A stretch of 21,413 nucleotides of DNA from a virus. The stretch is from positions 1 through 21,413 of the IMG/VR virus record IMGVR_UViG_3300034073_004006, one strand, 5' to 3'. Below are positions 10,136 through 21,413 of the stretch, in pieces. The first letter of the stretch is position 1; every line of letters begins with the position of its first letter. The notes beneath the pieces were generated by a model. The model worked only from the letters and a program-made list of their open reading frames with translations, made no database searches and was not told the origin of the DNA. Both the position numbers and the translations under genes were made by a program.

Positions 10136-10179
10136 CTGCCAAATTGACAGAAACCGTACCCCGCCTGCCAAAATGGCAG
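10136..10179. repeat. paired palindrome copy 14
   Basis: CTGCCAAATTGACAG and CTGCCAAAATGGCAG, 29 bp apart. It and its flanks match copy 17 closely, including the linker AAACCGTACCCCGC. Confidence 0.94.
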
Positions 10180-10230
10180 TCGGCTTCCAGCCAGGGCGGA
10201 CGCACCCATTACGCCCGCCCCGGCTTTCCG

Positions 10231-10395
10231 TCACTCGAACCAAGCTGGTTCCGGGTAGATTTCGTCGATGATTTCGTCGAGAATTCCCGCGATTTCCGCG
10301 AATTCCATCGGGTGAAGGTCTGAATCGGCTGGGGATTCGCACTCGCAGCAGGCGAGTTCAGCGTTCACGGCGTCAAGATCAATAACAGCGTTCAT
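10231..10395 (-). CDS. acidic small protein, 54 aa
   Basis: This acidic helical sequence has a CCECES Cys patch in the middle and a C-terminal EIAGILDEIIDEIYPEPAWF helix. The start at 10395 follows SD CAGGA. Promoter at 10428-10456 with a CCGATACC spacer. A GGGCGG/CCGCCC inverted repeat lies between its stop and palindrome copy 14. No family recognised. Confidence 0.82.
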   Translation of the reverse strand: MNAVIDLDAVNAELACCECESPADSDLHPMEFAEIAGILDEIIDEIYPEPAWFE

Positions 10396-10427
10396 CGTAT
10401 AATTCCTGGGGTGGTGATGATGCGTCA

Positions 10428-10456
10428 GTTGTACCATTAGGTATCGGTCCTGTCAA
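10428..10456 (-). promoter_or_regulatory. promoter for 10231..10395
   Basis: TTGACA, 17 bp with CCGATACC, TACAAC. Confidence 0.83.
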
Positions 10457-10477
10457 TGGAAGGAATTGAGAAAATCT

Positions 10478-10496
10478 ATCTCAAACGGCGATGGCC
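10478..10496 (-). repeat. CGTTTGA box, minus orientation
   Basis: ATCTCAAACGGCGATGGCC; same arrangement as 5045-5063. Confidence 0.7.
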
Positions 10497-10513
10497 TTTG
10501 GCATAGCATTTGC

Positions 10514-10532
10514 GATACTTTCCCAAAGTATC
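10514..10532. repeat. GATACTTTCCCAAAGTATC hairpin, copy 2
   Basis: Identical to 5081-5099 and also touching the following palindrome pair. Confidence 0.85.
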
Positions 10533-10575
10533 TGTCAAAATGGCAGCCCCGGTGGCGAGCCTGCCAAAATGGCAG
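10532..10575. repeat. paired palindrome copy 15
   Basis: CTGTCAAAATGGCAG and CTGCCAAAATGGCAG, 29 bp apart. Confidence 0.95.
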
Positions 10576-10620
10576 GCAGCTCATCTTGTGAGCAGTTGCT
10601 GCCTCATTGGCGGGCAGAGC

Positions 10621-10794
10621 TTACCAACCGTTTCGGCGGCACTCTTCGTCCCATGCACGATCCTCTTCCCGTTGCCAATCGGTGACGGCGGGGCCACCGT
10701 TCCACCAAGCATCTTTCGCTCGATCATAACCATCATCGGTGTTGTCGCAGTCGAAGTCGTCGTCGTAATCGCGGGTAGGGTCAGGATGGCTCAT
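10621..10794 (-). CDS. acidic Trp-rich small protein, 57 aa
   Basis: The N-terminus is Asp-rich (DYDDDFDCDNTDD), then a Trp-containing helix (YDRAKDAWWNGG) and an amphipathic W/E/R segment. This layout of an acidic start plus 'A-x-D-A-W' recurs in small phage proteins, but I cannot name the family. SD AAAGGA lies 9 nt before the ATG; promoter at 10824-10852. Palindrome copy 15 follows the stop. Confidence 0.82.
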   Translation of the reverse strand: MSHPDPTRDYDDDFDCDNTDDGYDRAKDAWWNGGPAVTDWQREEDRAWDEECRRNGW

Positions 10795-10823
10795 GGTTGG
10801 GTTTCCTTTGGGTTGATGGATGA

Positions 10824-10852
10824 AGTGTAACAGATTGGAGGCAGATTGTCAA
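10824..10852 (-). promoter_or_regulatory. promoter for 10621..10794, contains a stop codon
   Basis: TTGACA, 17 bp, TACACT. The TGA at 10849-10851 ends 10849..11058. Confidence 0.87.
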
Positions 10853-11058
10853 GCGAACGATCCGGTTTTTTGTCGCAGGGCGATGAGCATATCGCTCGCC
10901 GCCATCGAGGCCATGTGAGCTTTGTTCCACGCGGTAAAAGCCTTTTTGAATTCGCGGCTTTCCTTCTGGCCGATTTTCGCACGAAGACTTTCCATCTTGC
11001 GATACAATTCGCTTGAGTGGTTGTGAAGGGCAGAGCAGAGTTCGTTTGCACTAATCAT
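10849..11058 (-). CDS. helical hypothetical protein, 69 aa
   Basis: Predicted to be two or three helices (ELYRKMESLRAKIGQKESRE, then AFTAWNKAHMASMAASDMLI), with coiled-coil character. SD AAAGGA lies 9 nt before the ATG and the promoter has a CCGATACC spacer (11088-11116). It ends ...GSFA with TGA inside the TTGACA of the next promoter. No family recognised. Confidence 0.85.
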   Translation of the reverse strand: MISANELCSALHNHSSELYRKMESLRAKIGQKESREFKKAFTAWNKAHMASMAASDMLIALRQKTGSFA

Positions 11059-11087
11059 GGTTGAGTTTCCTTTGGGGTTATGTCATC

Positions 11088-11116
11088 ATTCTACTGTATG
11101 GTATCGGCATTGTCAA
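11088..11116 (-). promoter_or_regulatory. promoter for 10849..11058
   Basis: TTGACA, 17 bp with CCGATACC, TAGAAT. Confidence 0.9.
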
Positions 11117-11148
11117 GCGGAAAAATCAAGACAAAATTCTTGGGCGAA

Positions 11149-11186
11149 CGGCATACCGTTTGCTATATAGCAATTGCTGTGCCAAA
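11149..11186. repeat. TGGCA-TTGC inverted repeat
   Basis: CGGCAT-N5-TTGC, then GCAA-N5-GTGCC: facing arms with the perfect core TTGCTATATAGCAA. Confidence 0.7.
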
Positions 11187-11191
11187 AGCCT

Positions 11192-11206
11192 GTTGGCGTT
11201 TGAAAC
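11192..11206 (+). repeat. CGTTTGA box, plus orientation
   Basis: GTTGGCGTTTGAAAC abutting palindrome copy 16. Confidence 0.7.
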
Positions 11207-11249
11207 TGCCAAATTGGCAGTCGCGCTAGGGTTCCTGCCAAAATGGCAG
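11206..11249. repeat. paired palindrome copy 16
   Basis: CTGCCAAATTGGCAG and CTGCCAAAATGGCAG, 29 bp apart. Confidence 0.95.
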
Positions 11250-11253
11250 GCTG

Positions 11254-11292
11254 GCTGGCTATAGCGATTTTGGCGAGCCGACAGGATCGGCT
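11254..11292. repeat. GGCTATA / AGCCGAT hairpin block, copy 2
   Basis: GCTGGCTATAGC...AGCCGACAGGATCGGCT, 5 bp after palindrome copy 16, 22 bp past the stop of 11314..11535. Confidence 0.8.
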
Positions 11293-11313
11293 AGAACAAG
11301 ACAAACGAGCCTA

Positions 11314-11535
11314 TCAGCCCATACCCATCCAAGCTGCCTTTTCGGTACAATAATCACAAAACATATCATTCAAAACCTGAACATAATTGTCAGAATTCAA
11401 AGCTCGACGAGAAAGGATTTCGTCGCATTCGGCATAAAATTTGCCAGATGAAACATCCTGAACAATCGTACAATGTTGTGATTCATAGCCCCAGATTTGA
11501 GCCTTAGCACCCATAAACACATCAAACATTCTCAT
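11314..11535 (-). CDS. hypothetical protein, 73 aa
   Basis: A beta-strand start (IWGYESQHCTIVQDVSSGKF) is followed by an acidic helix and a C-terminal region with MFCDYCTEKAAWMGMG. Two isolated Cys near the end (C-x2-C) could join a metal site but there is no second pair. The start at 11535 follows a strong SD (AAAAGGAGAG). Promoter at 11562-11589. No family recognised. Confidence 0.84.
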   Translation of the reverse strand: MRMFDVFMGAKAQIWGYESQHCTIVQDVSSGKFYAECDEILSRRALNSDNYVQVLNDMFCDYCTEKAAWMGMG

Positions 11536-11561
11536 TTTTCTCTCCTTTTCTCTTTCATATG

Positions 11562-11589
11562 ATTCTATCATGAATATCGTCCGTGTCAA
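11562..11589 (-). promoter_or_regulatory. promoter for 11314..11535
   Basis: TTGACA, 16 bp, TAGAAT. Confidence 0.87.
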
Positions 11590-11660
11590 GACCCAAAATC
11601 CACAAAATTATTTTTCGCCCAAATACAACTCTTTGGCACACTATTTGCTCTCCTGCAAAA

Positions 11661-11704
11661 CTGCCAAATTGACAGAAACCGTACCCCGCCTGCCAAATTG
11701 GCAG
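11661..11704. repeat. paired palindrome copy 17
   Basis: CTGCCAAATTGACAG and CTGCCAAATTGGCAG, 29 bp apart; a near-duplicate of copy 14. Confidence 0.95.
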
Positions 11705-11734
11705 TCTGCCCAGGTTATGAGCAGAACTGCCTTT

Positions 11735-11896
11735 TTAGCAAGCATAGAAGCTAGTATCATGCTTCATCCGTTGCATGATAGTAATAACCTCTGGATTGGT
11801 CATGATGCAATGCCACATGTACCAGTTACAGAAGTTGAGCCATCCAGCCTCAGTTATTTGTCCGGTCTGGTAGAGGGTCCACATAGTTGTTCGCAT
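11735..11896 (-). CDS. small phage hypothetical (LYQTGQITEAGW family), 53 aa
   Basis: Motif LYQTGQITEAGWLNFCNWYM followed by a helix (NPEVITIMQRMKH). The order TG-x-(I/V)-T-x-x-x-W-x-x-FC...L-x-x-(I/L)-K is one I have seen in very small proteins of several phage groups; function unknown. Strong SD AGGAGG lies 6 nt before the ATG and overlaps the TAG stop of 11906..12085, so the two genes form a coupled operon. No own promoter. Confidence 0.85.
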   Translation of the reverse strand: MRTTMWTLYQTGQITEAGWLNFCNWYMWHCIMTNPEVITIMQRMKHDTSFYAC

Positions 11897-11905
11897 AGGT
11901 TCCTC

Positions 11906-12085
11906 CTAACAGCTATAAGCTGCAAGGTTTGCGTTTGGTCGATCATACAAAAAGGTTGCTACATTATCCTTGACCACATAAACACGATGACTTAGAGCAT
12001 ACAGAAAAATATAAAGGTTGCCATGAGGAGTTGACCTAACTACTGGCTTGACTTTTTCCGAATTAAGAATAGCTTGGATGGACAT
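11906..12085 (-). CDS. hypothetical protein, 59 aa
   Basis: Helical start, then a beta-rich core (HGNLYIFLYALSHRVYVVKD) and a short tail. The start at 12085 follows SD AAGGA with 10 nt spacing. Promoter at 12113-12141. Its TAG sits in the SD of the next gene (TTAGGAGG), and translation of both is likely coupled. No family recognised. Confidence 0.84.
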   Translation of the reverse strand: MSIQAILNSEKVKPVVRSTPHGNLYIFLYALSHRVYVVKDNVATFLYDRPNANLAAYSC

Positions 12086-12112
12086 TGCTAGGTTCCTTAG
12101 GGTTATTTGTGA

Positions 12113-12141
12113 AACATACCAGACTAGACGCGATTTGTCAA
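12113..12141 (-). promoter_or_regulatory. promoter for 11906..12085 operon, contains a stop codon
   Basis: TTGACA, 17 bp, TATGTT. The TGA at 12138-12140 ends 12138..12308. Confidence 0.8.
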
Positions 12142-12308
12142 TCGTATGTCTCCAATCGGAATTCATCGATATAGATATCGAAATATCCAGGTTCTTGACT
12201 CATGCGAGACATCATTCGTTCGGCAATCGTTCGTGTCTTACACACAAAAAGAGTGCGAGGATAGTTTTCGTTCACAAACTTCATTTGAATTAGGAAAACG
12301 GTCTGCAT
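12138..12308 (-). CDS. hypothetical protein, 56 aa
   Basis: A beta-alpha-beta layout (VFLIQMKFVNENYPRTLFVC, helix TRTIAERMMSRM, then an acidic strand FDIYIDEF). SD AAAGGA lies 10 nt before the ATG; promoter at 12337-12365. Ends ...ETYD with its TGA in the next -35 box. No family recognised. Confidence 0.84.
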   Translation of the reverse strand: MQTVFLIQMKFVNENYPRTLFVCKTRTIAERMMSRMSQEPGYFDIYIDEFRLETYD

Positions 12309-12336
12309 TGCTTGGGTTCCTTTGGGGTGTGCTCTA

Positions 12337-12365
12337 GTTGTACCATTAGGTATCGGCTTTGTCAA
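12337..12365 (-). promoter_or_regulatory. promoter for 12138..12308
   Basis: TTGACA, 17 bp with CCGATACC, TACAAC. Confidence 0.83.
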
Positions 12366-12425
12366 GCTGAGAAATTGAGAAGAAATTGTGAAATCTTTGG
12401 CATGAGATTTGCTGTGGTGTGTATG

Positions 12426-12469
12426 CTGCCAAAATGGCAGGGAGGGTGCCGCGCCTGCCAAATTGGCAG
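12426..12469. repeat. paired palindrome copy 18
   Basis: CTGCCAAAATGGCAG and CTGCCAAATTGGCAG, 29 bp apart. A TTGGCAT-N5-TTGC arm ends 13 bp to its left, and TTGGCAC-N5-TTGC (12479-12494) lies to its right. Confidence 0.95.
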
Positions 12470-12499
12470 TCGCTTTTGGTTTGGCACAGTAATTGCTGG

Positions 12500-12691
12500 T
12501 TAATCCCAGCCCCAGCCATTATCCTTGAAGTCGTTGGGGGTGTGTGGCAGCTCTCGCTTACGAGCCTGGAAGGCGTCATATATCGACCAAGCGACATCTC
12601 GGTGAGCAAGGTAAGTTTTCGTCCAGAGGGCGTTAACTTCAAGGTCGGTTGCGCAAGCGGCGATGGCGGCGAGGATAGCTTCGGTGTTCAT
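12500..12691 (-). CDS. helical hypothetical protein, 63 aa
   Basis: Three short helices are likely (EAILAAIAACATDLEVNALW, HRDVAWSIYDAFQARKREL), with a polar tail rich in Asn/Asp/Gly/Trp. SD AAAGGA lies 9 nt before the ATG. Promoter at 12720-12747, shared as DNA with the stop of the upstream gene. No family recognised. Confidence 0.85.
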   Translation of the reverse strand: MNTEAILAAIAACATDLEVNALWTKTYLAHRDVAWSIYDAFQARKRELPHTPNDFKDNGWGWD

Positions 12692-12719
12692 TTTTAGGTT
12701 CCTTTGGGGTTGTGTTCTA

Positions 12720-12747
12720 AGTCTACAAGATGTTTTGGTAATGTCAA
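12720..12747 (-). promoter_or_regulatory. promoter for 12500..12691, contains a stop codon
   Basis: TTGACA, 16 bp, TAGACT. The TGA at 12744-12746 ends 12744..12929. Confidence 0.87.
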
Positions 12748-12929
12748 GCGGAATGTTCTAGCATCAACCTGTCGATTTCATCCGACAACAACCTGTCGAT
12801 TTCGGCATACAGTTGCTTGGCCGTCCCTAGAGCGACCAAGTCGTCGTTCATAGGAACATTAAGTTTCTGGCAGGTCGCCCAGTAATCGTAGCAGGCAACT
12901 TCGAGGTATGTTTCGCACGCGTGACGCAT
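12744..12929 (-). CDS. helical protein, possible distant paralog of 15143..15364
   Basis: This 61-aa protein contains DDLVALGTAKQLYAEIDRLL. The gene at 15143..15364 has a similar DDRLMTVGTADELLAEIGRM segment, so they may share an ancestor. The start at 12929 has a weak SD (CGGAAA). The promoter is atypical (TTGCAA in place of TTGACA). It ends ...EHSA with TGA in the next promoter's TTGACA. The DNA DRLLSDEIDRL region carries a short tandem duplication (CAACCTGTCGATTTC twice). Confidence 0.82.
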   Translation of the reverse strand: MRHACETYLEVACYDYWATCQKLNVPMNDDLVALGTAKQLYAEIDRLLSDEIDRLMLEHSA

Positions 12930-12963
12930 CGTTCGGTTTCCGGGAGGGTTGTTGTATGCTATC

Positions 12964-12992
12964 AGTCTACATTTTGGTATCGGCAATTGCAA
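12964..12992 (-). promoter_or_regulatory. promoter for 12744..12929, variant -35
   Basis: TTGCAA, 17 bp with CCGATACC, TAGACT. Confidence 0.75.
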
Positions 12993-13009
12993 GTAAAAAA
13001 ATTAGGGCG

Positions 13010-13059
13010 AAAAAATTTTCTTTGGCATAGAAATTGCTGGGTGCAAACGCTGTGCCAAA
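13010..13059 (-). terminator. probable intrinsic terminator (TGGCA-TTGC inverted repeat)
   Basis: On the minus strand TTTGGCAC...TTGC...GCAA...ATGCCAAA can pair, followed by AAAATTTTTT. The plus strand also shows TTGGCAT-N5-TTGC at 13022-13037. Confidence 0.5.
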
Positions 13060-13068
13060 CCTCGGTGT

Positions 13069-13112
13069 CTGCCAAAATGGCAGGCGCGGGAGCGGGTCTG
13101 CCAAAATGGCAG
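13069..13112. repeat. paired palindrome copy 19
   Basis: Two identical CTGCCAAAATGGCAG units, 29 bp apart. Confidence 0.95.
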
Positions 13113-13158
13113 TCTCGTTTTGTTGTTAGATATGTTATTTGGTACGCGGATTGCTAGC

Positions 13159-13398
13159 TCAATTGTCTCGCCATGAGTAATCGACCAAGACGCCAGTAGA
13201 ATCTACGCGAACCCAGCCTAGATCGGAGCGAAGCCTATCTGGATAAACAAAAATGATACCGTTATTGGTATTGGCGACTCGCAGCAGTATACCGCGAACG
13301 GCGAGCGTACCAGTCGCATCGTCTACGCGGTCGTGGGCAAGGTGGACAGAATCCACGAGATCGGCAAAAGTGGAAACAGTGTGAAGTTCGCGCGACAT
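13159..13398 (-). CDS. hypothetical protein, 79 aa
   Basis: A helical start (STFADLVDSVHLAHDRVDDA), then a beta-rich domain (GILLRVANTNNGIIFVYP, LGWVRVDSTGVLVDYSW). The start at 13398 follows SD GGAG; an in-frame ATG farther up lacks an SD. Promoter at 13444-13472. No family recognised. Confidence 0.82.
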   Translation of the reverse strand: MSRELHTVSTFADLVDSVHLAHDRVDDATGTLAVRGILLRVANTNNGIIFVYPDRLRSDLGWVRVDSTGVLVDYSWRDN

Positions 13399-13443
13399 GG
13401 TATCGGCTCCGCGTGTGATGAGGGGGTTGATGGTCATGCGTAT

Positions 13444-13472
13444 GTTGTACCAATAGGTATCGGCTATGTCAA
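13444..13472 (-). promoter_or_regulatory. promoter for 13159..13398
   Basis: TTGACA, 17 bp with CCGATACC, TACAAC. Confidence 0.85.
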
Positions 13473-13512
13473 ACAAAAAAATTGAGCCTGTCTCGAAAAA
13501 ATTTTTGAGCGA

Positions 13513-13551
13513 ATTGGTATGAGAGTTGCACTATGCAAATACCGTGCCAAA
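13513..13551. repeat. TGGCA-TTGC inverted repeat, degenerate
   Basis: TTGGTAT-N5-TTGC facing GCAA-N5-GTGCCAA; spacing as at 13021-13059. The gap 13399-13763 holds only this, a promoter, palindromes, the hairpin block below and a GGCAACCCCTT repeat (13699, 13714); no gene seen. Confidence 0.6.
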
Positions 13552-13560
13552 TGGAGGCGT

Positions 13561-13604
13561 CTGCCAAAATGGCAGGCCGGGGAGGGTGGCTGCCATAATG
13601 GCAG
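13561..13604. repeat. paired palindrome copy 20
   Basis: CTGCCAAAATGGCAG and CTGCCATAATGGCAG, 29 bp apart, unusually far (159 bp) from the stop of 13764..14027. Confidence 0.95.
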
Positions 13605-13637
13605 TTAACTTACAATTCCGATAAGAGTCCTCAACTC

Positions 13638-13677
13638 GCTGGCTATAGCCCACCTTGCCTAGCCGATAGGATCGGCT
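13638..13677. repeat. GGCTATA / AGCCGAT hairpin block, copy 3
   Basis: GCTGGCTATAGC...AGCCGATAGGATCGGCT, stem AGCCGAT/ATCGGCT. Confidence 0.8.
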
Positions 13678-13763
13678 GATACAATAGGACAGGAGCAGGG
13701 CAACCCCTTGTACGGCAACCCCTTACAACACAAAGGATCGCCCCGCTCAACTGTCAACCCCGA

Positions 13764-14027
13764 TCACGCAAGACGAACAACATCGGAGGTGGTGGTCTTG
13801 ACGTATACACGCAAGCCAGTGGAGAGTGTCACGATCCAATTGTTTCCGCTTCCATCTTCGATCTGGATGCCATTGATCATTCCTTGGAATTGATGGCCGC
13901 TACGATCAACAAGGTTCACATGCTTACGCTGTTGCATGCACAAGCAAAGGTCTTTGTAGACATAGAGTGGAGGAGAGATCAGGGGCTTGGCAGGAGTGTT
14001 GGGCTTGCGGAGTGAATCGGTGTTCAT
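13764..14027 (-). CDS. hypothetical, small beta-barrel-like, 87 aa
   Basis: After a Pro-rich disordered start, residues about 33-87 look like a small Sm/SH3-like barrel: RKHVNLVDRSGHQFQGMING, then IQIEDGSGNNWIVTLSTG and VYVKT. An 'IEDGSG' turn between strands is common in small phage proteins. SD AAAGGA suits the ATG at 14027 (9 nt) better than the in-frame ATG at 14033 (3 nt). The same double-ATG layout occurs at 15993..16205. Confidence 0.83.
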   Translation of the reverse strand: MNTDSLRKPNTPAKPLISPPLYVYKDLCLCMQQRKHVNLVDRSGHQFQGMINGIQIEDGSGNNWIVTLSTGLRVYVKTTTSDVVRLA

Positions 14028-14067
14028 GATCATGGTTCCTTTGGGGTATCGTTCCTTTGATGCTTCA

Positions 14068-14096
14068 ATGATACTGTATGGTATCGGCAATGTCAA
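14068..14096 (-). promoter_or_regulatory. promoter for 13764..14027
   Basis: TTGACA, 17 bp with CCGATACC, TATCAT. Confidence 0.85.
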
Positions 14097-14178
14097 GGGG
14101 AGAAATTGAATCCTTCTCAAAAATCTTTCGTGTGCAAATACTGTGCCATTCGAGAAGAATTGTTCAACGAAGTGTATG

Positions 14179-14222
14179 CTGCCTTTTTGGCAGACAGGGT
14201 AGCGGGCCTGCCATAATGGCAG
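14179..14222. repeat. paired palindrome copy 21
   Basis: CTGCCTTTTTGGCAG and CTGCCATAATGGCAG, 29 bp apart. Confidence 0.93.
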
Positions 14223-14248
14223 GTTGTTACTATTGTGTTACTATTGTG

Positions 14249-14365
14249 TTACAAAAACACTGTGAACGGAATAGCAAATAGTAATACTACGATGAACAGC
14301 ATAGTATACCCGGCGATACTCTCTTGTCGCTCGAATATCTCGCGTTCGGTGGGTTGCTTTTTCAT
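14249..14365 (-). CDS. 38-aa membrane peptide
   Basis: A charged N-terminus (MKKQPTEREIFERQES) is followed by one membrane helix reaching the end (AGYTMLFIVVLLFAIPFTVF). SD AAAGGA lies 7 nt before the ATG. The promoter is unclear: TACAAT (about 14403-14408) and TATAAT (about 14458) lie upstream without a good -35. Palindrome copy 21 follows. Function unknown. Confidence 0.72.
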   Translation of the reverse strand: MKKQPTEREIFERQESIAGYTMLFIVVLLFAIPFTVFL

Positions 14366-14519
14366 GTTACTATCCTTTGTTGGGATGTTACTATTTGTTG
14401 ACTATTGTATGGTGCCACTAGCCCAACACTAAACGCTCGGGGTGCGGTTGTCCCGAATTATAGGGCTGCGATTTTGTAAGATACCATTCGAGGCTTATGG
14501 TCATCTGTTTGTTTGACTA

Positions 14520-14942
14520 TCACTCGTCCCTGAACGGTGACACGTCGTGCTTTCCTGCTTCGATTGCGGCGTACTGGTCGCGGAGAGCATCGAGACGCTC
14601 CCGACTACCGGGGGTTCCGACCTTGACAATCATGTTATCATGGGCGGCTGGATTGTAGTTGCGATGGTGCTTGTACTTGCTCTTGCTTCCGCGTGACTTG
14701 GGGAACTTCGTGACCTTCTCGACCCACAGGCAAGGCACACCGTCCTCACCCGTGAAGTATTCGACACCCTCGACGGGATCGGTGACTTCGACCAGTTCGG
14801 CACCGCTCGCAATGCCGTAGAACATGGCTCGTGCGGCTCGCTTGACTCCGCGAACGGCTTGACGGGCGTTGGCAATGAGGGCTTCGTCGCTCACGGCGAG
14901 AATCTCACGGTCACACATGTCGGGGGTGATGAGGGTACGCAT
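14520..14942 (-). CDS. hypothetical protein, paralog of 7481..7867
   Basis: This 140-aa protein has a helical N-terminal half (SDEALIANARQAVRGVKRAA), a middle with EGVEYFTGEDGVPCLWVEK, a basic SRGSKSKYKHHR stretch, and the C-terminal block YNPAAHDNMIVKVGTPGS...VSPFRDE shared with 7481..7867. The shared block and differing fronts suggest recombination or divergence after duplication. SD AAGGA; promoter at 14984-15012. Function unknown. Confidence 0.86.
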   Translation of the reverse strand: MRTLITPDMCDREILAVSDEALIANARQAVRGVKRAARAMFYGIASGAELVEVTDPVEGVEYFTGEDGVPCLWVEKVTKFPKSRGSKSKYKHHRNYNPAAHDNMIVKVGTPGSRERLDALRDQYAAIEAGKHDVSPFRDE

Positions 14943-14983
14943 GGTTCGGGTTCCTTCTGGGGTTGTCGTTCTTGTATGCTCTG

Positions 14984-15012
14984 ATTGTACACTTTGGTAT
15001 CGGCCATGTCAA
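14984..15012 (-). promoter_or_regulatory. promoter for 14520..14942
   Basis: TTGACA, 17 bp with CCGATACC, TACAAT. Confidence 0.9.
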
Positions 15013-15030
15013 GCGGAAAAATTGAGTGCG

Positions 15031-15081
15031 AAAAAAAATTTCTTTGGCACGAGAATTGCTGTATGCAAACGCTGTGCCAAA
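15031..15081 (-). terminator. probable intrinsic terminator, copy A
   Basis: Minus strand: TTTGGCAC-N5-TTGC, loop, GCAA-N5-GTGCCAAA, then GAAA and eight T. The plus strand shows a perfect TTGGCACG-N4-TTGCT. Nearly identical to 15446-15496 including flanks. Confidence 0.55.
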
Positions 15082-15090
15082 CGAGTGAGC

Positions 15091-15134
15091 CTGCCAAAAT
15101 GGCAGCGCGGGGGCGCGGCCTGCCATAATGGCAG
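15091..15134. repeat. paired palindrome copy 22
   Basis: CTGCCAAAATGGCAG and CTGCCATAATGGCAG, 29 bp apart, 8 bp past the stop of 15143..15364. Confidence 0.95.
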
Positions 15135-15142
15135 TTAGCTTT

Positions 15143-15364
15143 TCAGCGACCACCAGCAACATAGCAGAAGTCCCATGCGGGGTGTGCGCTAGCTTCGTCC
15201 CACATCACATCGACCATGCGGCCGATCTCGGCCAACAGCTCGTCGGCGGTGCCTACCGTCATGAGTCGGTCATCCGGCAAGCAGCCGTGCATCTCTTCGA
15301 ACAGAGCGGAGTACTCTTGGCGAAGGCAATCAACTTCCGTCATGCGGGCGAAGGTGTTGGACAT
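15143..15364 (-). CDS. helical hypothetical, possible paralog of 12744..12929
   Basis: This 73-aa protein is helical: VDCLRQEYSALFEEMHG, then DDRLMTVGTADELLAEIGRM, then a Trp/aromatic tail. The second segment resembles the one in 12744..12929. The start at 15364 follows SD GAGGA; longer in-frame readings pass through the promoter and repeats. Promoter at 15399-15427. Function unknown. Confidence 0.84.
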   Translation of the reverse strand: MSNTFARMTEVDCLRQEYSALFEEMHGCLPDDRLMTVGTADELLAEIGRMVDVMWDEASAHPAWDFCYVAGGR

Positions 15365-15398
15365 AATCAAGGTTCCTCGGGGTTGGGTGTTTGGGACG

Positions 15399-15427
15399 AG
15401 TATAATGTATGGCATCGGCAATGTCAA
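15399..15427 (-). promoter_or_regulatory. promoter for 15143..15364
   Basis: TTGACA, 17 bp with CCGATGCC, TATACT. Confidence 0.88.
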
Positions 15428-15445
15428 GGGGAAAAATTGAGTGCG

Positions 15446-15496
15446 AAAAAAAATTTCTTTGGCACGAGAATTGCTGTATGCAAACGCTGTGCCAAA
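15446..15496 (-). terminator. probable intrinsic terminator, copy B
   Basis: Same hairpin and T-tract as 15031-15081; about 72 bp around the two copies differ at a single base. Confidence 0.55.
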
Positions 15497-15505
15497 CGGG
15501 CGGGC

Positions 15506-15549
15506 ATGCCATTTTGGCAGGCCGGGGGGCGCGCCTGCCAAAATGGCAG
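15506..15549. repeat. paired palindrome copy 23
   Basis: ATGCCATTTTGGCAG and CTGCCAAAATGGCAG, 29 bp apart. The two units also complement each other, giving a possible 15-bp long-range stem. Confidence 0.95.
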
Positions 15550-15586
15550 TCTGCCTTGTTTGTTGGCGGTGCTGCACGGTTTTAGG

Positions 15587-15793
15587 TCAGGACCATATCA
15601 CGCCTACGTTTTCGCCATACTTGGCTCGGGCATCTGCGAGTGCATCCCGAACACAGTAGGCTTGAATGTAGCCCAGGCTCTCATTCTTGCCGTTCCATCT
15701 GTCGCCAACGAAAACCAAGTAGGTTTCCAGACGACCAACGTATACGTCATCGTGTTCACAACCGCGAGGGGCATAGGTGCGATACTTGCTCAT
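15587..15793 (-). CDS. hypothetical protein, 68 aa
   Basis: An alpha/beta layout: ETYLVFVGDRWNGKN strand-turn, SLGYIQAYCVRDALADARAK strand-helix, then a final strand ENVGVIWS. It resembles small phage proteins of the 'V-x-A-x-S-x-x-x-A-x-x-x-A' accessory kind but I cannot name it. SD AAGGA; promoter at 15833-15861. Palindrome copy 23 lies 37 bp past the stop. Confidence 0.85.
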   Translation of the reverse strand: MSKYRTYAPRGCEHDDVYVGRLETYLVFVGDRWNGKNESLGYIQAYCVRDALADARAKYGENVGVIWS

Positions 15794-15832
15794 GATTAGG
15801 TTTCCTTGGGGCTATCGTTCTGGTGTGAATAT

Positions 15833-15861
15833 ATCGTATAGTATGGTATCGGCCATGTCAA
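15833..15861 (-). promoter_or_regulatory. promoter for 15587..15793
   Basis: TTGACA, 17 bp with CCGATACC, TACGAT. Confidence 0.8.
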
Positions 15862-15915
15862 TCATAGAAATTGAGAAAATCTCGCGTGAGCAAATCCTGT
15901 GCCAAACCGAAGTGT

Positions 15916-15959
15916 ATGCCAAAATGGCAGGCCGGGGGGCGAGCCTGCCAAAATGGCAG
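15916..15959. repeat. paired palindrome copy 24 (rightmost)
   Basis: ATGCCAAAATGGCAG and CTGCCAAAATGGCAG, 29 bp apart; linker nearly the same as in copy 23. Confidence 0.95.
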
Positions 15960-15992
15960 TGAGCCTAATTGGCGGGCATCGCTGCCTGCCTT

Positions 15993-16205
15993 TTAGGCGT
16001 TCGCTGCTCGTCGTGCGATCATGTGGAGATTGTCGCAGATCGTCTGTACGGCACGTGCCACAGTACCACGAAACACGTAGTATTTCATGTGGATGTCGAA
16101 CAAAGCAACCGTACCATCCGTCTGCGGGTGATACGTGAAGCCTGCCTTGTAGGCATACTTGTAGATGTGCTTGCGGATCGTCGATTCTTTCGGTACTCGT
16201 TTCAT
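15993..16205 (-). CDS. basic hypothetical protein, 70 aa
   Basis: Basic helical start (STIRKHIYKYAYKAGFTY), a beta hairpin (GTVALFDIHMKYYVFRG), then a helix (VARAVQTICDNLHMIARRA). Could bind nucleic acid. SD AAAGGA favours the ATG at 16205 (9 nt) over the in-frame ATG at 16211 (3 nt). Promoter at 16234-16262. No family recognised. Confidence 0.84.
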   Translation of the reverse strand: MKRVPKESTIRKHIYKYAYKAGFTYHPQTDGTVALFDIHMKYYVFRGTVARAVQTICDNLHMIARRAANA

Positions 16206-16233
16206 CGTCATGGTTCCTTTGGGGTATGTGTGA

Positions 16234-16262
16234 AGTCTACACTTTGGTATCGGACATGTCAA
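16234..16262 (-). promoter_or_regulatory. promoter for 15993..16205
   Basis: TTGACA, 17 bp with CCGATACC, TAGACT. Confidence 0.9.
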
Positions 16263-16280
16263 GCAGAGAAATTGAGAGAA

Positions 16281-16514
16281 TCACTCTCCAAAACTTCCGC
16301 AGGCATAATACTCGTAGTTTACGATTCCGTTACAATCGATTCCGATTGCCTCGCCCTCCATACCGTAAAAATCGCCAAGGTATCCATCGCGGCTCGCCTC
16401 GCAGAGCAACTCGCCCACCAACCGGCAACCGATCAGCGTAAATCCCTCGATTCCATCGCGGGTGGCAAGATCGATATGGGCGGTGAGTTCAGCGTGAGTC
16501 GAAAAAGTGGGCAT
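16281..16514 (-). CDS. hypothetical protein, 77 aa, first gene of the array
   Basis: Mixed fold: a helical start (HAELTAHIDLATRDGIEGFT), then LVGELLCEASRDGYLGDFYG and a Gly/Ile-rich beta end. SD AAGGA; promoter at 16543-16571. The stop lies 18 bp before the next promoter with no palindrome pair. It is the gene closest to the control region. No family recognised. Confidence 0.85.
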   Translation of the reverse strand: MPTFSTHAELTAHIDLATRDGIEGFTLIGCRLVGELLCEASRDGYLGDFYGMEGEAIGIDCNGIVNYEYYACGSFGE

Positions 16515-16542
16515 TTTCAGGTTTCCTTGGGGTTATGCCTCG

Positions 16543-16571
16543 ATTCTATACTTTGGTATCGGCTTTGTCAA
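16543..16571 (-). promoter_or_regulatory. promoter for 16281..16514
   Basis: TTGACA, 17 bp with CCGATACC, TAGAAT. Confidence 0.9.
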
Positions 16572-16642
16572 CCGGAAAAATTGAGTCCATCCAGAAAAAA
16601 ATTTTTTGGGGCATTCGGCACAGGAATTGCTAGAAGGATCGA

Positions 16643-16719
16643 GGGGGTTTTTCTGTTTTTTTTGTAAGGCATGGCTGAACTGCCCGTCGCCGGGGGTGGT
16701 CTAGACATAGTAAACCCCC
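16643..16719. repeat. GGGGGTTT / AAACCCCC inverted repeat
   Basis: Eight-base arms 61 bp apart, enclosing a T-rich run (16651-16661) and CCCGTCGCCGGGG. The gap 16515-16856 has no gene I can support: it contains the array's first promoter, a single TCGGCAC-N5-TTGC arm (16615-16630), this repeat and two hairpins. It lies where array and packaging genes meet. Confidence 0.6.
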
Positions 16720-16766
16720 AAAAATCAAAATGTACTACCTAATCTATCCCTCTAAGCCCTTTGATA

Positions 16767-16788
16767 CTTTTGTTTCCCAAAACAAAAG
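16767..16788. repeat. CTTTTGTTT / AAACAAAAG hairpin
   Basis: Nine-base stem, four-base loop, directly joined to the terminator hairpin. Confidence 0.7.
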
Positions 16789-16817
16789 ACTCGCCGATTC
16801 TAAAAAACCGGCGAGTC
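16776..16817 (-). terminator. intrinsic terminator of 16857..17114
   Basis: Minus strand: GACTCGCCG, 12-nt loop, CGGCGAGTC, then TTTTGTTTT. The nine-base GC-rich stem and the T-run fit a standard rho-independent terminator, 40 bp past the stop. Confidence 0.85.
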
Positions 16818-16856
16818 CTCACCTTAATGTATCAGCTAAACTATTAGATTAGGCCC

Positions 16857-17114
16857 CTATAATTGATTCCTGTCGCCTTTGATCCCAGTTTCAACTATAT
16901 CAATAGCATTTCTGACCTTATCACTGCGCTTTGGTCGTCCGCGACCGCGCTTAATATTCATTTTTCTGCGCTGGTTATTAATCATACGTGGCGTAATAAT
17001 TTCGCCCGTCATATTACTCAATTTGATAGCAATAACATTATCAGTCATGGTATCACTATTTTCCTTAATAAATTCTAATTCACTAGGACTCCATCTTTTA
17101 TACATTCTGCTCAT
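16857..17114 (-). CDS. small DNA-binding protein with AT-hook-like tail
   Basis: Residues 7-50 (RWSPSELEFIKENSDTMTDN ... ITPRMINNQRRKM) resemble a SANT/Myb-like or homeodomain-like helix-turn-helix: W-x-x-x-E-x-x-F(L)-I...NVIAIKL...RM-x-x-N-x-R. The tail KRGRGRPKR contains an RGRP AT-hook core. The start at 17114 follows SD AAAGGA. It sits alone between the array and the rightward operon, transcribed away from the latter from a divergent control region. That place and fold fit a regulator of one or both gene sets (inference). Confidence 0.8.
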   Translation of the reverse strand: MSRMYKRWSPSELEFIKENSDTMTDNVIAIKLSNMTGEIITPRMINNQRRKMNIKRGRGRPKRSDKVRNAIDIVETGIKGDRNQL

Positions 17115-17172
17115 AAGATACCTTCCTTTATTTACTTGGTGTGAAACACTTGCACAATTTTCCTGTCTTGTT

Positions 17173-17200
17173 ATTATAAAGGGTGTGGAAAATGACGCAA
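17173..17200 (-). promoter_or_regulatory. promoter for 16857..17114
   Basis: TTGCGT, 16 bp, TATAAT; weaker -35 than in the array. Confidence 0.65.
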
Positions 17201-17224
17201 TAATATTTTTTATCAACGCATTAA

Positions 17225-17296
17225 CGACACATTAACAACACAATATTGACACATTTTAGGAATTATCGCTTAAAAATAACAGATAAACGACACATT
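17225..17296. promoter_or_regulatory. three GACACATT direct repeats, possible operators
   Basis: GACACATT at 17226, 17248 and 17289, that is 22 and 41 bp apart, about two and four helical turns. They lie between the divergent regulator gene and the packaging operon. Confidence 0.5.
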
Positions 17297-17304
17297 TCAA
17301 AAAT

Positions 17305-17332
17305 TTGGTGTAATTAAATCAGCACTTATAAT
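17305..17332 (+). promoter_or_regulatory. candidate promoter of the rightward operon
   Basis: TTGGTG, 16 bp, TATAAT. A start 7 nt after the -10 would cut off the GGAGG SD at 17333-17337, so either start spacing differs or the true promoter is upstream. A phage sigma factor using only a -10-like box is also possible. Confidence 0.35.
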
Positions 17333-17343
17333 GGAGGTATATT

Positions 17344-17727
17344 ATGGCTCGCCCAGAAACAATTTTTAATCCCCTTGCCGTTAAAAATCGCCAAATTGAA
17401 GAAGTTCAAAAAGTTCAGCAAGTTTTAGCGTCAGAAAAACCTAGCGAACCCGCCCAATCAACATATTTCTCTTCAGATTTAGCTTCTTCCCTTCTTTCTG
17501 TCCATTCTGACGTAGATATAAGTGAAGATCTTAAAGCAGAACCCACAAAAACAATTGCCGAACTCCTATCTCCTAATACCGATACGCCAACTTCAGAAGC
17601 TGAAGAATCGCCCAAACCTAAAAAGAAAACAAAAAATAAATCAAAAAATCCACAAGAGGTGACTGATGAAGAAAAAGCCGAGAGCGAACAAGAAGATCAA
17701 GAAACTGAAAAAGATTCGACCAATTAA
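17344..17727 (+). CDS. disordered, charged hypothetical protein
   Basis: This 127-aa protein has an N-terminal helical part (NRQIEEVQKVQQVLASEKP) and then low-complexity sequence rich in Glu, Lys, Ser and Pro. Such proteins in head-gene clusters may be scaffolding or accessory factors, but no family is recognised. SD GGAGG lies 6 nt before the ATG. Its last 62 bases overlap the next gene in another frame. First gene of the rightward operon. Confidence 0.82.
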   Translation: MARPETIFNPLAVKNRQIEEVQKVQQVLASEKPSEPAQSTYFSSDLASSLLSVHSDVDISEDLKAEPTKTIAELLSPNTDTPTSEAEESPKPKKKTKNKSKNPQEVTDEEKAESEQEDQETEKDSTN

Positions 17728-18379
17728 AATCAAACAACCAACACCCTCCTCTGCTAAACCCAAAAAACTAACTTCCAATAAGAAGGTAAATGAAGAGGAC
17801 TTCTTAATCGCCCTAGATAATGTAACCAAAAAACTCGTATATAAATTTCGTTTTGGTTATCACGATATAGAAGATATGAAGCAGCAAGCTACTATCTTTG
17901 CTTTAGAAGGAATAGAGTTATATGACCATAAAAGGCCCCTCGAAAATTTTCTATGGACCCATATTCATAATAGACTCTTTAATTTCAAGAGGAACAACTA
18001 CAAACGCCCAGATTCTCCCTGCACAACATGTCCTTTTAATGACCCCAAATTATTAAAGTCTAAAAGCGGATGTCTTCAATTCACCGATAAAGAATCTTGT
18101 GAACTATATCGTCCTTGGCTCGATAGAAACAAAAATAAACAAAATATAATGTCGCCCGCTTTATTAGATCATGAATTATATACCGCAAAAGATCTTTCCG
18201 ATAATGTTGCAGACTTAGAGATGCTCAAAGAGATCGAAATGAATCTCACGGGCGAGTACCGCGAATATTATTTGCGGCTTAAAAACGGCGAAAAACTTTC
18301 TAAACAAAAACTTGAAAAATTAAAAGCGCACATAAAATCAATTATCAATTACGAGGAAGATTCCAATGACGACGAATGA
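17666..18379 (+). CDS. phage sigma-70 region-2-like protein with Cys cluster
   Basis: This 237-aa protein has a very basic N-terminus (1-40). Residues about 55-110 match sigma region 2: FRFGYHDIEDMKQQATIFAL, then EGIELYD, then FLWTHIHNRLFNFKRNN (the core-binding and -10-recognising helices). An inserted cluster C119-x2-C122 ... C136 ... C145 may bind zinc. The C-terminus is helical (LRLKNGEKLSKQKLEKLKAH) and could be a remnant region 4. SD AGAGG. A T4 gp55-like late sigma role is the natural guess; it overlaps both neighbours, which fits coupling to late genes. Confidence 0.72.
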   Translation: MKKKPRANKKIKKLKKIRPIKIKQPTPSSAKPKKLTSNKKVNEEDFLIALDNVTKKLVYKFRFGYHDIEDMKQQATIFALEGIELYDHKRPLENFLWTHIHNRLFNFKRNNYKRPDSPCTTCPFNDPKLLKSKSGCLQFTDKESCELYRPWLDRNKNKQNIMSPALLDHELYTAKDLSDNVADLEMLKEIEMNLTGEYREYYLRLKNGEKLSKQKLEKLKAHIKSIINYEEDSNDDE

Positions 18380-19235
18380 ACGCTTTAATGATGACGGTAC
18401 TCCTATCGATAATGATATGGGGCATGGCAATCGTAAAAGAGGTAAACTATCTCTTGATGAGGGAAAATTTATCAGAGAAAGTTATGGTAAATTAACTATT
18501 CAACAAATCGCCCATGCTCTTAATCGTACCGAAGAACCTATTCAGAAATATGTTAAAGAGAATAATTTATCGATCATTGATATGAGCGAGGTTCAACGAG
18601 ACAATGAAATACTGCGCCAAAAACTATACGCTAAAACTTTTTATCCAGAAATTAAAAGACAGTTTGATGAAGGCTCAGGGGAACTGAGATATTTTGAGGA
18701 TACCTGGATAAATCTTATTAAACAGTTTCGTGAGGACGTTCTTCCTACCGAAGAATCTCAGATCAAAGAATTTATTACTATTGAAATCCTTATTAATAGA
18801 AGTATGCAAGATCGTAAGGCCCATATTGCCGAAATGGACAAACTTCAAAAACAAATTGATGCAGAATACGATAAAGATGAGGGCGACAGAGATCTCGCTA
18901 AATTAACTGCCCTAGAAACTAATCTTACATTTACTCGTAATGCCCTATCTAATTACACAAATGAGTTTACTAAACTTCTTAACGAAAAACAAAAAATCAG
19001 CAAAGATCTAAAAGCCACAAGAGAACAAAGAATTAAACGTATCGAAGAAGGCAAAAGTTCATGGGCTGGACTTATTCGTATGTTAGAGGACGAACTAGTG
19101 CGCGAAAAAGAAGGGCGTGAAATGGAAATCCTTGCAATGGCAGCAGATCGCTATAGAGAAAAACTATCTGATTATCACACTTATTTAGATAATACAGTTG
19201 ATCAACCTTTATTAACACCTGATACCGTAAAGTAG
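18366..19235 (+). CDS. probable terminase small subunit
   Basis: This 289-aa protein has an HTH at about residues 28-68 (LSLDEGKFIRESYGKLTIQQ, IAHALNRTEEPIQKYVKENN) and then long charged helices with coiled-coil character (residues 150-220). A DNA-binding N-terminus plus helical oligomerisation region upstream of the large terminase fits a small terminase, which recognises the packaging site and assembles as a ring. The call rests on position and layout; it could also be a packaging-linked regulator. SD GAGGAAG; the start overlaps the previous gene by 14 bp. Confidence 0.62.
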   Translation: MTTNERFNDDGTPIDNDMGHGNRKRGKLSLDEGKFIRESYGKLTIQQIAHALNRTEEPIQKYVKENNLSIIDMSEVQRDNEILRQKLYAKTFYPEIKRQFDEGSGELRYFEDTWINLIKQFREDVLPTEESQIKEFITIEILINRSMQDRKAHIAEMDKLQKQIDAEYDKDEGDRDLAKLTALETNLTFTRNALSNYTNEFTKLLNEKQKISKDLKATREQRIKRIEEGKSSWAGLIRMLEDELVREKEGREMEILAMAADRYREKLSDYHTYLDNTVDQPLLTPDTVK

Positions 19236-19238
19236 TTT

Positions 19239-19574
19239 ATGAAACGCAACTTTGATGACCCCCAATATAAACAATGGAGAGCAGATGTGCGAAAAAGAGA
19301 TGGTGCTACTTGTGTGTGGCCCAACTGTAATTCCCGCAAAAGAATTCATGCCCACCATATATATCCGTGGACTCAATTCCCTCACCTAAGATATTTAGTA
19401 GATAATGGATGTTGTTTATGTTACACTCACCATAAATTAGTAAATACTAATGAATTAATATATGCGCCCTTATTTCTATCAATTATCAAACAATCTAAAA
19501 TCGCCCAAAAACCTCAAAAAACACGTAAGCCCCCTCGAAAAACGCGTCCTTCTAATAAAAGGAAAAAGCTATGA
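19239..19574 (+). CDS. HNH endonuclease
   Basis: This 111-aa protein has the treble-clef zinc frame C25-x4-C30 and C58/C61 with H64/H65, and the HNH signature HAHHIYPW (37-44), N56-G57 and LCYTHHK. It cuts DNA with a metal ion. HNH enzymes next to terminase genes are needed for cos cleavage in several phages (HK97 gp74 type), so a packaging role is likely. The C-terminus is basic. It starts 3 bp after the previous stop with a weak SD and overlaps the next gene by 4 bp (ATGA). Confidence 0.88.
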   Translation: MKRNFDDPQYKQWRADVRKRDGATCVWPNCNSRKRIHAHHIYPWTQFPHLRYLVDNGCCLCYTHHKLVNTNELIYAPLFLSIIKQSKIAQKPQKTRKPPRKTRPSNKRKKL

Positions 19575-20068
19575 ATGAACAAGAATTTACAGTAATTGTA
19601 GACACAAGAGAACAAACACCCTGGGAATTACCTCATTTTACAATAGCTAATCATAAACTTGATGTAGGAGATTATAGTATTCAAGGTTTAGAAACAATAT
19701 TCTGCCTTGAAAGAAAACGCACAGTAAATGAATTTGCTAATAATATTACTGAATCTCGTTATGAAGACTTTATTGGGCGCCTCAAAAATATCACCCATCC
19801 ATTCGTCCTATTTGAATTCTCTATGGACGATGTTCTAAGATATCCCGTTGGAAGTACTGTTCCTAAAAAATTATGGCACAAAATCAAAATATCGCCCAAG
19901 TTTATTATGCGGCACATTATAGAACTACAACTCCTGCATAAAATCCCCGTGTATTTCTGTGGCGACACCTCTAATGCTGAAGCTCTAGCTGCCCAAATCA
20001 TTGAAAAAGTCCACAAAATGTATCCTAACCCACCACAAAATACCCCAGAGGTGAATCGTGAAACTTAA
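19571..20068 (+). CDS. ERCC4 (XPF/Mus81)-type nuclease
   Basis: This 165-aa protein has the family core: VIVDTREQTPWE (D11, R13, E14), LDVGDYSI (D31), then CLERKR (E47-R-K49), that is the D-x(n)-D...ERK-x3-D-like active site of ERCC4 nucleases. These cut branched or flapped DNA. No helix-hairpin-helix domain is seen, so it is a stand-alone nuclease core. Between the HNH gene and the large terminase, a likely job is trimming junctions or branches before packaging, comparable to T4 endonuclease VII (inference). SD AAAGGA. Confidence 0.88.
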   Translation: MNEQEFTVIVDTREQTPWELPHFTIANHKLDVGDYSIQGLETIFCLERKRTVNEFANNITESRYEDFIGRLKNITHPFVLFEFSMDDVLRYPVGSTVPKKLWHKIKISPKFIMRHIIELQLLHKIPVYFCGDTSNAEALAAQIIEKVHKMYPNPPQNTPEVNRET

Positions 20069-21413
20069 AGGTCACACAGAATTTGATGATGCCTGGTTAG
20101 GTTTAGGTGATTTATCTAAAATTAAAATCGCCCAAAACCCTCTTACACACCGCTCTGAACGAGACATAGAATATCCTGATTTGCATATGCTTAAGAAGCT
20201 CCGCGATCCCCGATATTTAGGATCTACTGCTAAAATTTTGCTCAATATCGAATTACATCCAATACAGATTTGTGTTTTGCAGGAAATTTGGTCTCGTGCT
20301 TTTCCCATGTTAATTGGTTCCCGTGGTTTTTCAAAAAGTTTTTCATTAGCTTTGTACGCTATTTTACGTTGCGCTCTATACCCAGGAACCAAAGTAGTTA
20401 TTGTTGGTGCTGCTTTTCGTCAATCCAAAATTATTTTTGAATATATGGAAAATATGTGGAAGAACGCACCAGTTCTACGTTCTATTTTTGGTCATGCTGA
20501 TGATGGCCCTCGTAAAGATGTGGATAGATGTACGATGCGTTTGGGTGAAAGTTGGGCTATTGCTATTCCTCTAGGAACTGGAGATAAGATTAGAGGTCTA
20601 CGCGCCCACATTATTCTTGCAGACGAATTTTCGTCTATTTCGCCCGATATTTATGAAACAGTTGTTGCGGGCTTCGGTGTTGTTTCATCTGATCCTATTC
20701 AAAACATTAAGAATGAAGCTAAAAAACAAGCGATGATCGAGGCTGGCGTATGGAATGATGACTTAGAAACATTAAATGTGGCTCGTAGTAATCAGGCTGT
20801 ATTGTCTGGAACCGCTGATTATGATTTCAAACATTTTGCAGCTTACTGGAGAAGATATAAGGGCATTATTGAAAGTAAGGGCGATGAAAGAAAATTGGGC
20901 GAAGTATTAGGCAATGATATTCCGGATAGTTTTAATTGGAAAGATTATTCTATTATTAGAATTCCATATGAATTAATTCCTAAAGGATTCATGGATGATA
21001 AACAGGTGGCTCGTGCTAGAGCTACAATTCATAGTGGTACATATAATATGGAATATGGGGCCATCTTTGTTAAAGATAGTGATGGATTCTTTAAGCGTAC
21101 TTTAATAGAAGGGTGCGTAGTATCTAATCAAATAATAAAGATTAATGATGAGCAAATTCTATTCGATGCTATGATTAAGGGCCATTCAGATAGAGAATAT
21201 ATATACGGAATTGACCCTGCTTCTGAACAAGATAATTTTTCAATAGTAATACTAGAAGCCCACCCAGAACATAGTCGTGTGGTTTATTGTTGGACAACTA
21301 ATCGTAGTAATTTTAAAGAAAGACAAAAGACCGGCCTTATTAAAGAACAAGATTTTTATGGGTTCTGTGCGAGAAAAATACGAAATCTAATGAAGGTGTT
21401 TCCACCCGCGAGG
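20058..21413 (+). CDS. terL: terminase large subunit, 3' end cut by window edge
   Basis: 452 codons are present and open to the edge. It starts at GTG (20058) after SD AGAGG and overlaps the previous gene by 11 bp. Motor domain: Walker-A-like GSRGFSKS (residues 87-94), Walker B IILADE (185-190) with the catalytic Glu, coupling motif LSGTADYD (249-256). Nuclease domain begins with YGIDPASE (D386), the first metal ligand of the RNase H-like fold. It pumps DNA into the prohead and cuts it. The remaining nuclease motifs lie beyond the window. Confidence 0.93.
   Translation, partial: MKLKGHTEFDDAWLGLGDLSKIKIAQNPLTHRSERDIEYPDLHMLKKLRDPRYLGSTAKILLNIELHPIQICVLQEIWSRAFPMLIGSRGFSKSFSLALYAILRCALYPGTKVVIVGAAFRQSKIIFEYMENMWKNAPVLRSIFGHADDGPRKDVDRCTMRLGESWAIAIPLGTGDKIRGLRAHIILADEFSSISPDIYETVVAGFGVVSSDPIQNIKNEAKKQAMIEAGVWNDDLETLNVARSNQAVLSGTADYDFKHFAAYWRRYKGIIESKGDERKLGEVLGNDIPDSFNWKDYSIIRIPYELIPKGFMDDKQVARARATIHSGTYNMEYGAIFVKDSDGFFKRTLIEGCVVSNQIIKINDEQILFDAMIKGHSDREYIYGIDPASEQDNFSIVILEAHPEHSRVVYCWTTNRSNFKERQKTGLIKEQDFYGFCARKIRNLMKVFPPAR

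Follow-up and report, generated by a model that had tools for sequence, protein, structure and literature searches.

The window analyzed here, that is, the whole 21,413-nt (21.4-kb) stretch of virus record IMGVR_UViG_3300034073_004006, holds chiefly small minus-strand ORFs below ≈17.2 kb and, from 17.3 kb on, a compact late-type block on the plus strand in the order sigma-like protein, 289-aa HTH/coiled-coil protein, HNH nuclease, ERCC4 nuclease, and large terminase TerL. The conserved late block begins with a sigma-70 region 2-like protein of 237 aa (17666..18379, plus strand), which matches phrog_1740 (RNA polymerase sigma factor; E 3.6e-6) and, below the cut-off, Pfam Sigma70_r2 (E 1.9e-4), and whose gene keeps the same position in most relatives. 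The 289-aa protein (18366..19235, plus strand), a candidate small terminase by position, is followed by the 111-aa HNH nuclease (19239..19574, plus strand), a stand-alone ERCC4 (XPF/Hef/Mus81-type) nuclease domain of 165 aa (19571..20068, plus strand), and TerL, which has a GTG start and is open at the window end (20058..21413, plus strand). The HNH and ERCC4 ORFs overlap by 4 bp (an ATGA common to both) and the ERCC4 and TerL ORFs by 11 bp, and a simple scan found no terminator-like site from the HNH start to TerL. The initial annotation had placed two overlapping nuclease genes between the small and large terminase genes; their overlap and their position ahead of TerL are confirmed, and the upstream gene is a small terminase by position only. 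A contig of the same phage (L002; 99.95% over window 15410-21413) carries the complete TerL of 679 aa and, 3′ of it, ORFs of 732, 537, 150, and 335 aa that, read from sequence and gene order, are probably portal, protease, and head/capsid proteins.

Several elements lie elsewhere in the window. Positions 300-16600 carry at least 26 copies of a double palindrome (CTGCCA..TGGCAG-N-CTGCCA..TGGCAG), mostly 400 to 900 bp apart, and a second element (GGTATCGGC..TGTCAAG..AATTGAG), both apparently situated between the small minus-strand ORFs; together these look like per-gene regulatory units. The minus strand also encodes a Pistol ribozyme (window 1492-1561; Rfam RF02679, 61 bits, above the gathering score) and a DUF7227/GP88-like protein (window 372-1073). 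The start of L002 matches window 14957-15135 (93%) and then resumes at 15410; comparing window 15135-15410 with the L002 start, a repeat unit of ≈415 bp is missing or misassembled.

We are confident in assigning the ERCC4 ORF, from its sequence and a predicted model, as an XPF/Hef/Mus81-fold nuclease domain. The ORF scores over the cut-off against Pfam PF02732 (E 5.8e-11) and matches phrog_3490 (E 4.3e-11), and a 39-sequence ERCC4 profile matches the Hef nuclease (E 1.3e-10), with the D..RE, GDY, and ERK residues aligned to those of Hef. The model (pLDDT 90.6) finds Hef, XPF, and Mus81 as its best matches by Foldseek/VIA, with VIA Z-scores of 14.7 for Hef (1j24; rmsd 2.2, 127 aligned), 14.6 for XPF (2bgw; rmsd 2.3, 125 aligned), and 13.7 for Mus81 (4p0p; rmsd 3.1, 143 aligned); unrelated chains begin at Z 5.6. 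Residues D11, R13, E14, D31, D34, E47, R48, K49, E54, and R63 are invariant in all 66 non-redundant relatives, which were drawn from 137 loci with L113 left out as incomplete. The active-site signature of the ERCC4 superfamily is GDXnERKX3D; GD and ERK are invariant in 66/66 sequences, the X3D acid position is N53 in the window, and the invariant E54 stands next to it. The C-terminal (HhH)2 domain of XPF and Mus81 grips DNA. The ERCC4 ORF stops ≈15 residues past the nuclease domain, with the last helix ending at residue 150 of 165; it therefore lacks an (HhH)2 domain and, although it belongs to the nuclease-domain superfamily, is no complete XPF or Mus81. Sequence and model predict its nuclease activity and substrate. 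An endonuclease VII identity was rejected for both the HNH and the ERCC4 ORF, neither of which matches PF02945 at E 0.1.

The HNH ORF matches phrog_119 (E 1.3e-8) and, under the cut-off, Pfam HNH_2 (E 0.039), and C25, C30, H39, H40, N56, C61, and H65 are invariant in 66/66 non-redundant relatives. TerL matches phrog_2 (E 7.3e-19), and the closest TerLs of named phages are ≈26 to 31% identical over part of their length. Columns invariant in nine of nine diverse TerLs include the Walker lysine and D303, D363, and D488 (Stills TerL numbering), which by motif assignment we take to be the nuclease acids; since TerL retains its own nuclease acids, the genome-end cut need not be made by ERCC4. The TerL ORFs of L124, L152, and L168 contain LAGLIDADG intein-like inserts of ≈350 aa, two of them at the same Walker A place and the third elsewhere. 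The 289-aa protein, with 62 to 73% identity in 29 aligned relatives, matches transcriptional regulators (phrog_323 and phrog_14101, E 1e-3 to 6e-3) and no small terminase family among the Pfam and PHROG profiles at E 0.1; a fold search returned nothing better than E 0.13, with weak matches to coiled-coil proteins alone. Its position makes it a candidate small terminase. Profile-profile comparison with the equivalent protein of a second clade (see below) gave E 0.0082 at a probability of 4.9%, for which homology is not claimed, and comparisons with gp001 of phiCDIF1296T and with the Stills/MaeS protein gave no match.

To survey terminase loci for ERCC4, as the initial annotation had proposed, we examined loci that carry the 289-aa protein and TerL and found both nucleases in between in 137/137 cases, with some contigs entering twice; this exceeds what chance would give. 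Across three TerL-led surveys of viral contigs, between which a few contigs recur, ERCC4 precedes TerL in 226 of 240 loci; each set keeps only the 80 best of its matches and therefore leans to its query. ERCC4 is beside TerL in 78/80 loci of the first set (best 80 of 530), made up of 75 with HNH and ERCC4 and three with ERCC4 near a contig end, with TerL at the contig end in the other two. The second set (best 80 of 581) has it in 77/80, of which 73 are fused (see below) and four have ERCC4 near the end, and TerL is at the end in three more. The third set (best 80 of 580), where TerL is <60% identical to that of the window in 75 of 79 measured cases (median 52%), has it in 71/80, comprising 62 with HNH and ERCC4, eight with ERCC4 near the end, and one with ERCC4 and no HNH (L326); the rest are five with TerL at the end and four without ERCC4. 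Ten of the 14 misses thus lie at contig ends, and four are truly without ERCC4: L296 and L297 (phage Stills and a near relative), L299, and L361. In L361, whose TerL is 50% identical, a trypsin-like peptidase gene (L361:181-1146) lies directly before TerL at the expected ERCC4 place. The gene is therefore kept in related packaging loci, where its absence had been named as the outcome that would count against a packaging role.

Approached from the nuclease, an ERCC4-led survey found this TerL adjacent in 38 of 41 loci, the window's own phage among them. Among bacterial genome contigs, 18 of 20 ERCC4 loci have no TerL of this type; the whole block is present in L196 (Flavobacteriales MAG) and L197 (Alphaproteobacteria MAG), which may be binning strays. 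Among named phages, the window ERCC4 matches HRTV-25/27 only (four records), and neither the second-clade ERCC4 nor the protein at the portal position of the window phage has a match. SPbeta, Lactococcus 949, phiCDIF1296T, Stills, and MaeS have another protein directly before a similar TerL, with no ERCC4 gene listed there, and the module is therefore not required by this TerL type generally. In Lactococcus phage 949, the protein encoded ahead of TerL (L376:2838-3866) has an N-terminal stretch that faintly resembles zinc fingers of the HNH/endonuclease VII kind (E 5e-4 to 0.06).

The surveyed loci fall into two architectures. In a second clade, with TerL ≈25% identical to that of the window clade, ERCC4 forms the C-terminal portion of a ≈300- to 320-aa protein, its signature reads DRKxxxD, and no HNH gene lies upstream (0/78 loci). 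The N-terminal part of this fusion resembles PF18780, the homing-endonuclease-associated repeat (E 0.0017-0.087), as well as a C2H2 finger (E 0.0018-0.0097); every one of these matches falls below the Pfam cut-off, but both kinds recur in all three members scanned. Among the 265 loci whose upstream DNA spans 1.5 kb or more, 187 have a separate HNH, 78 have the fusion, and none has both or neither; the corresponding counts are 116, 60, 0, and 0 for 176 distinct ERCC4 cores and 55 separate to 37 fused for 92 loose ERCC4 clusters. L326, which has neither HNH nor fusion, falls just outside the upstream-length limit of this count. The either-or pattern is the main reason to regard HNH and ERCC4 as belonging together, with ERCC4 the constant part; it partly reflects the two clades and so does not represent 92 independent events. 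Two further genes occur in these operons. A GDP-mannose 4,6-dehydratase gene (L043:8269-9255 and relatives) lies upstream of ERCC4 in 176/265 loci, in none of the fused clade and not in the window, and a conserved protein of ≈195 aa without known family (L050:8943-9530, L052:9385-9981) is encoded between HNH and ERCC4 or between ERCC4 and TerL.

ERCC4 is under TerL-like purifying selection and co-varies with TerL. Pairwise distances correlate at 0.748 for ERCC4 and TerL and at 0.645 for HNH and TerL, with 0/2000 permutations as high in either case (61 loci, five of the 66 having been excluded for intein-bearing, cut, or misread ORFs). Median dN/dS values are 0.022 for ERCC4, 0.070 for HNH, 0.026 for TerL, and 0.023 for the 289-aa protein, medians that are rough, as they come from 16 pairs per gene in which some phages are doubled via duplicate loci.

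What might such a pair do at a packaging locus? We propose, with a probability of roughly one-half, that HNH and ERCC4 form a late, packaging-time module that processes DNA structures, that is, trims branches. ERCC4 would be the constant catalytic core, a stripped-down, nuclease-domain-only structure-specific nuclease of the XPF/Mus81 type; its gene overlaps the reading frame of the packaging motor TerL within a shared late operon. The enzyme would most likely cut flaps, Y-forks, and perhaps nicked junctions in the replicating concatemer, letting TerL move past the branches. Having no (HhH)2 domain, it would rely on a zinc-type partner, either the separate HNH of the window clade or the fused C2H2 finger and repeat of the second clade; we infer that HNH and ERCC4 act together and that they are physically coupled to TerL or the portal. 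The simplest reading of an XPF-fold nuclease encoded alongside the motor is a trimmer of branches or flaps for packaging. T4 offers the precedent, in that its motor halts at Y- and X-branches and endonuclease VII bound to the portal frees it (PMC10893049, PMC9958956; for Y-DNA also PMC3485210). Genomic placement favors the packaging module as well, in that ERCC4 lies in the late operon with TerL, whereas endonuclease VII instead adjoins a DNA ligase-like ORF (named from sequence) in both records inspected by ORF. Against it stand the L361 and L326 exceptions, the related isolates without ERCC4 before TerL, and the endonuclease VII of window-clade phages (see below), beside which a second branch cutter may be redundant; moreover, operon neighbors need not share function, since the GDP-mannose dehydratase gene occupies the same operon.

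Two other explanations are unlikely but deserve consideration. HNH, with or without ERCC4, could assist TerL by nicking or processing the site at which packaging starts or ends, much as the HNH protein gp74 of HK97 stimulates cos cleavage (PMC9410871). The HNH gene adjoins the terminase genes and keeps its HNH and zinc residues intact, as this accessory role in terminase cutting would have it; however, the second clade keeps ERCC4 in the absence of HNH, and TerL has nuclease acids of its own. ERCC4-fold enzymes, moreover, recognize structure, not sequence. To a similarly small degree, we consider that ERCC4 is a general recombination or repair nuclease placed in the late operon, with its link to packaging a matter of operon convenience. 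A sugar-nucleotide enzyme is among the operon neighbors, and ERCC4 of other phages lies away from the terminase genes, as in HRTV-25 and in Bacillus phage A9Y (ORF14, with terminase at ORF24/25; PMC10535572). A nuclease so placed for convenience is hard to reconcile with an ERCC4 gene that stays by TerL across clades with TerLs ≈25% identical, while the dehydratase and ≈195-aa genes come and go.

Far less probable is that ERCC4 serves as the phage's stand-in for endonuclease VII as main Holliday-junction resolvase. Of 21 long records, eight carry an endonuclease VII gene (PF02945), among them all five window-clade records >180 kb (G001, G003, G004, G005, and G021), with G008, G018, and G019 as the further carriers; one of these genes was rechecked by Pfam. 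ERCC4 occurs once per record in 14 of 15 long records, with a second match below the cut-off in G012. The replacement of a T4 endonuclease VII-like activity, which the initial annotation had coupled to packaging, is thus not supported in the window clade, where ERCC4 adds to endonuclease VII and does not replace it; what stands of that interpretation is the conservation of ERCC4 at the packaging locus, its co-variation and shared selection regime with TerL, and its branch-cutter fold. In the fused clade, where 0/3 long records (G012, G016, and G017) encode endonuclease VII, replacement by ERCC4 is conceivable, with the absence itself weak evidence because many records are fragments. Pfam ERCC4 missed G016 and G017, where a purpose-built profile finds ERCC4 beside TerL, and Pfam absence in the fused clade is therefore not evidence of absence. 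RuvC was not found in 15 records or in a second set of 10 that includes the three fused-clade records, nor RecU in 15 records that include all three, which is in keeping with a stand-in role; RusA was likewise absent from 15 records, but only one of the three fused-clade records was among those searched. NinG/Rap was found in 0/17 records, and the search for T7 endonuclease I (0/17) is uninformative, as no positive control registered in it.

HNH nucleases and homing-endonuclease-associated repeats are typical of mobile elements and LAGLIDADG inteins sit in some TerL genes of this lineage, but a selfish insert, in which a homing-type HNH with a hitchhiking ERCC4 invaded the space between the terminase genes, is scarcely credible and was already disfavored, given that both nucleases occupy 137/137 loci with no alternation with empty sites, that distances co-vary with TerL, and that dN/dS is 0.02 to 0.07. 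The patchy presence expected of a homing or selfish endonuclease was not seen, and this candidate was rejected.

The packaging module can be carried further, albeit tentatively and with less conviction than the module itself. An XPF/Mus81-type nuclease may be a dedicated, near-universal packaging component in a broad uncultured lineage, working with the motor and guided by a zinc module that can be exchanged, either HNH in trans or the C2H2/repeat in cis; one clade would retain endonuclease VII for junctions at the replication stage, and the other would have lost it. Such a nuclease would stand beside the five phage resolvase superfamilies listed in work on SPP1, a list on which ERCC4 does not appear (PMC3485210).

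The domain families themselves are not new, and a few phages already have annotated ERCC4 genes of the same domain family (PHROG 3490; HRTV-25/27; Bacillus phage A9Y ORF14); unlike the window, HRTV-25 has no terminase gene listed within 12 kb around ERCC4. With archaeal Hef/XPF and eukaryotic Mus81–Eme1, the window ERCC4 has in common the nuclease-domain fold and the D..RE, GDY, and ERK residues, but it differs in having neither helicase nor (HhH)2 domain, in placing the last acid of ERKx3D one residue later (E54), and in belonging to a phage late packaging operon with an HNH or C2H2/repeat partner. T4 endonuclease VII (gp49) has the same proposed job, freeing a motor stalled on branched DNA (PMC10893049, PMC9958956), whereas ERCC4 is of an unrelated nuclease family, its gene lies between terminase genes, and the window clade has a separate endonuclease VII. 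HK97 gp74-type packaging proteins are likewise small HNH proteins encoded beside the terminase genes, but the window-clade HNH is nearly always paired with ERCC4, and the sister clade has a non-HNH fused domain. The literature searched yielded no report that links ERCC4 to the terminase locus, describes the swap between HNH and C2H2-repeat partners, or records the lineage-wide spread.

The ERCC4 nuclease family is best known from archaeal and eukaryotic repair, and T4 endonuclease VII is the main case in which branch clearing during phage packaging has been elucidated. In the present loci, gene order links ERCC4 to the motor across hundreds of uncultured phage contigs, and its occurrence with a zinc-bearing partner before TerL suggests, from the genes themselves, that tangled DNA may be trimmed as it is packed. 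If ERCC4 does work at the motor, it would constitute a second, independent solution to branch clearing and, if true, a minimal XPF-like enzyme that obtains its DNA-gripping domain from a partner open to exchange.
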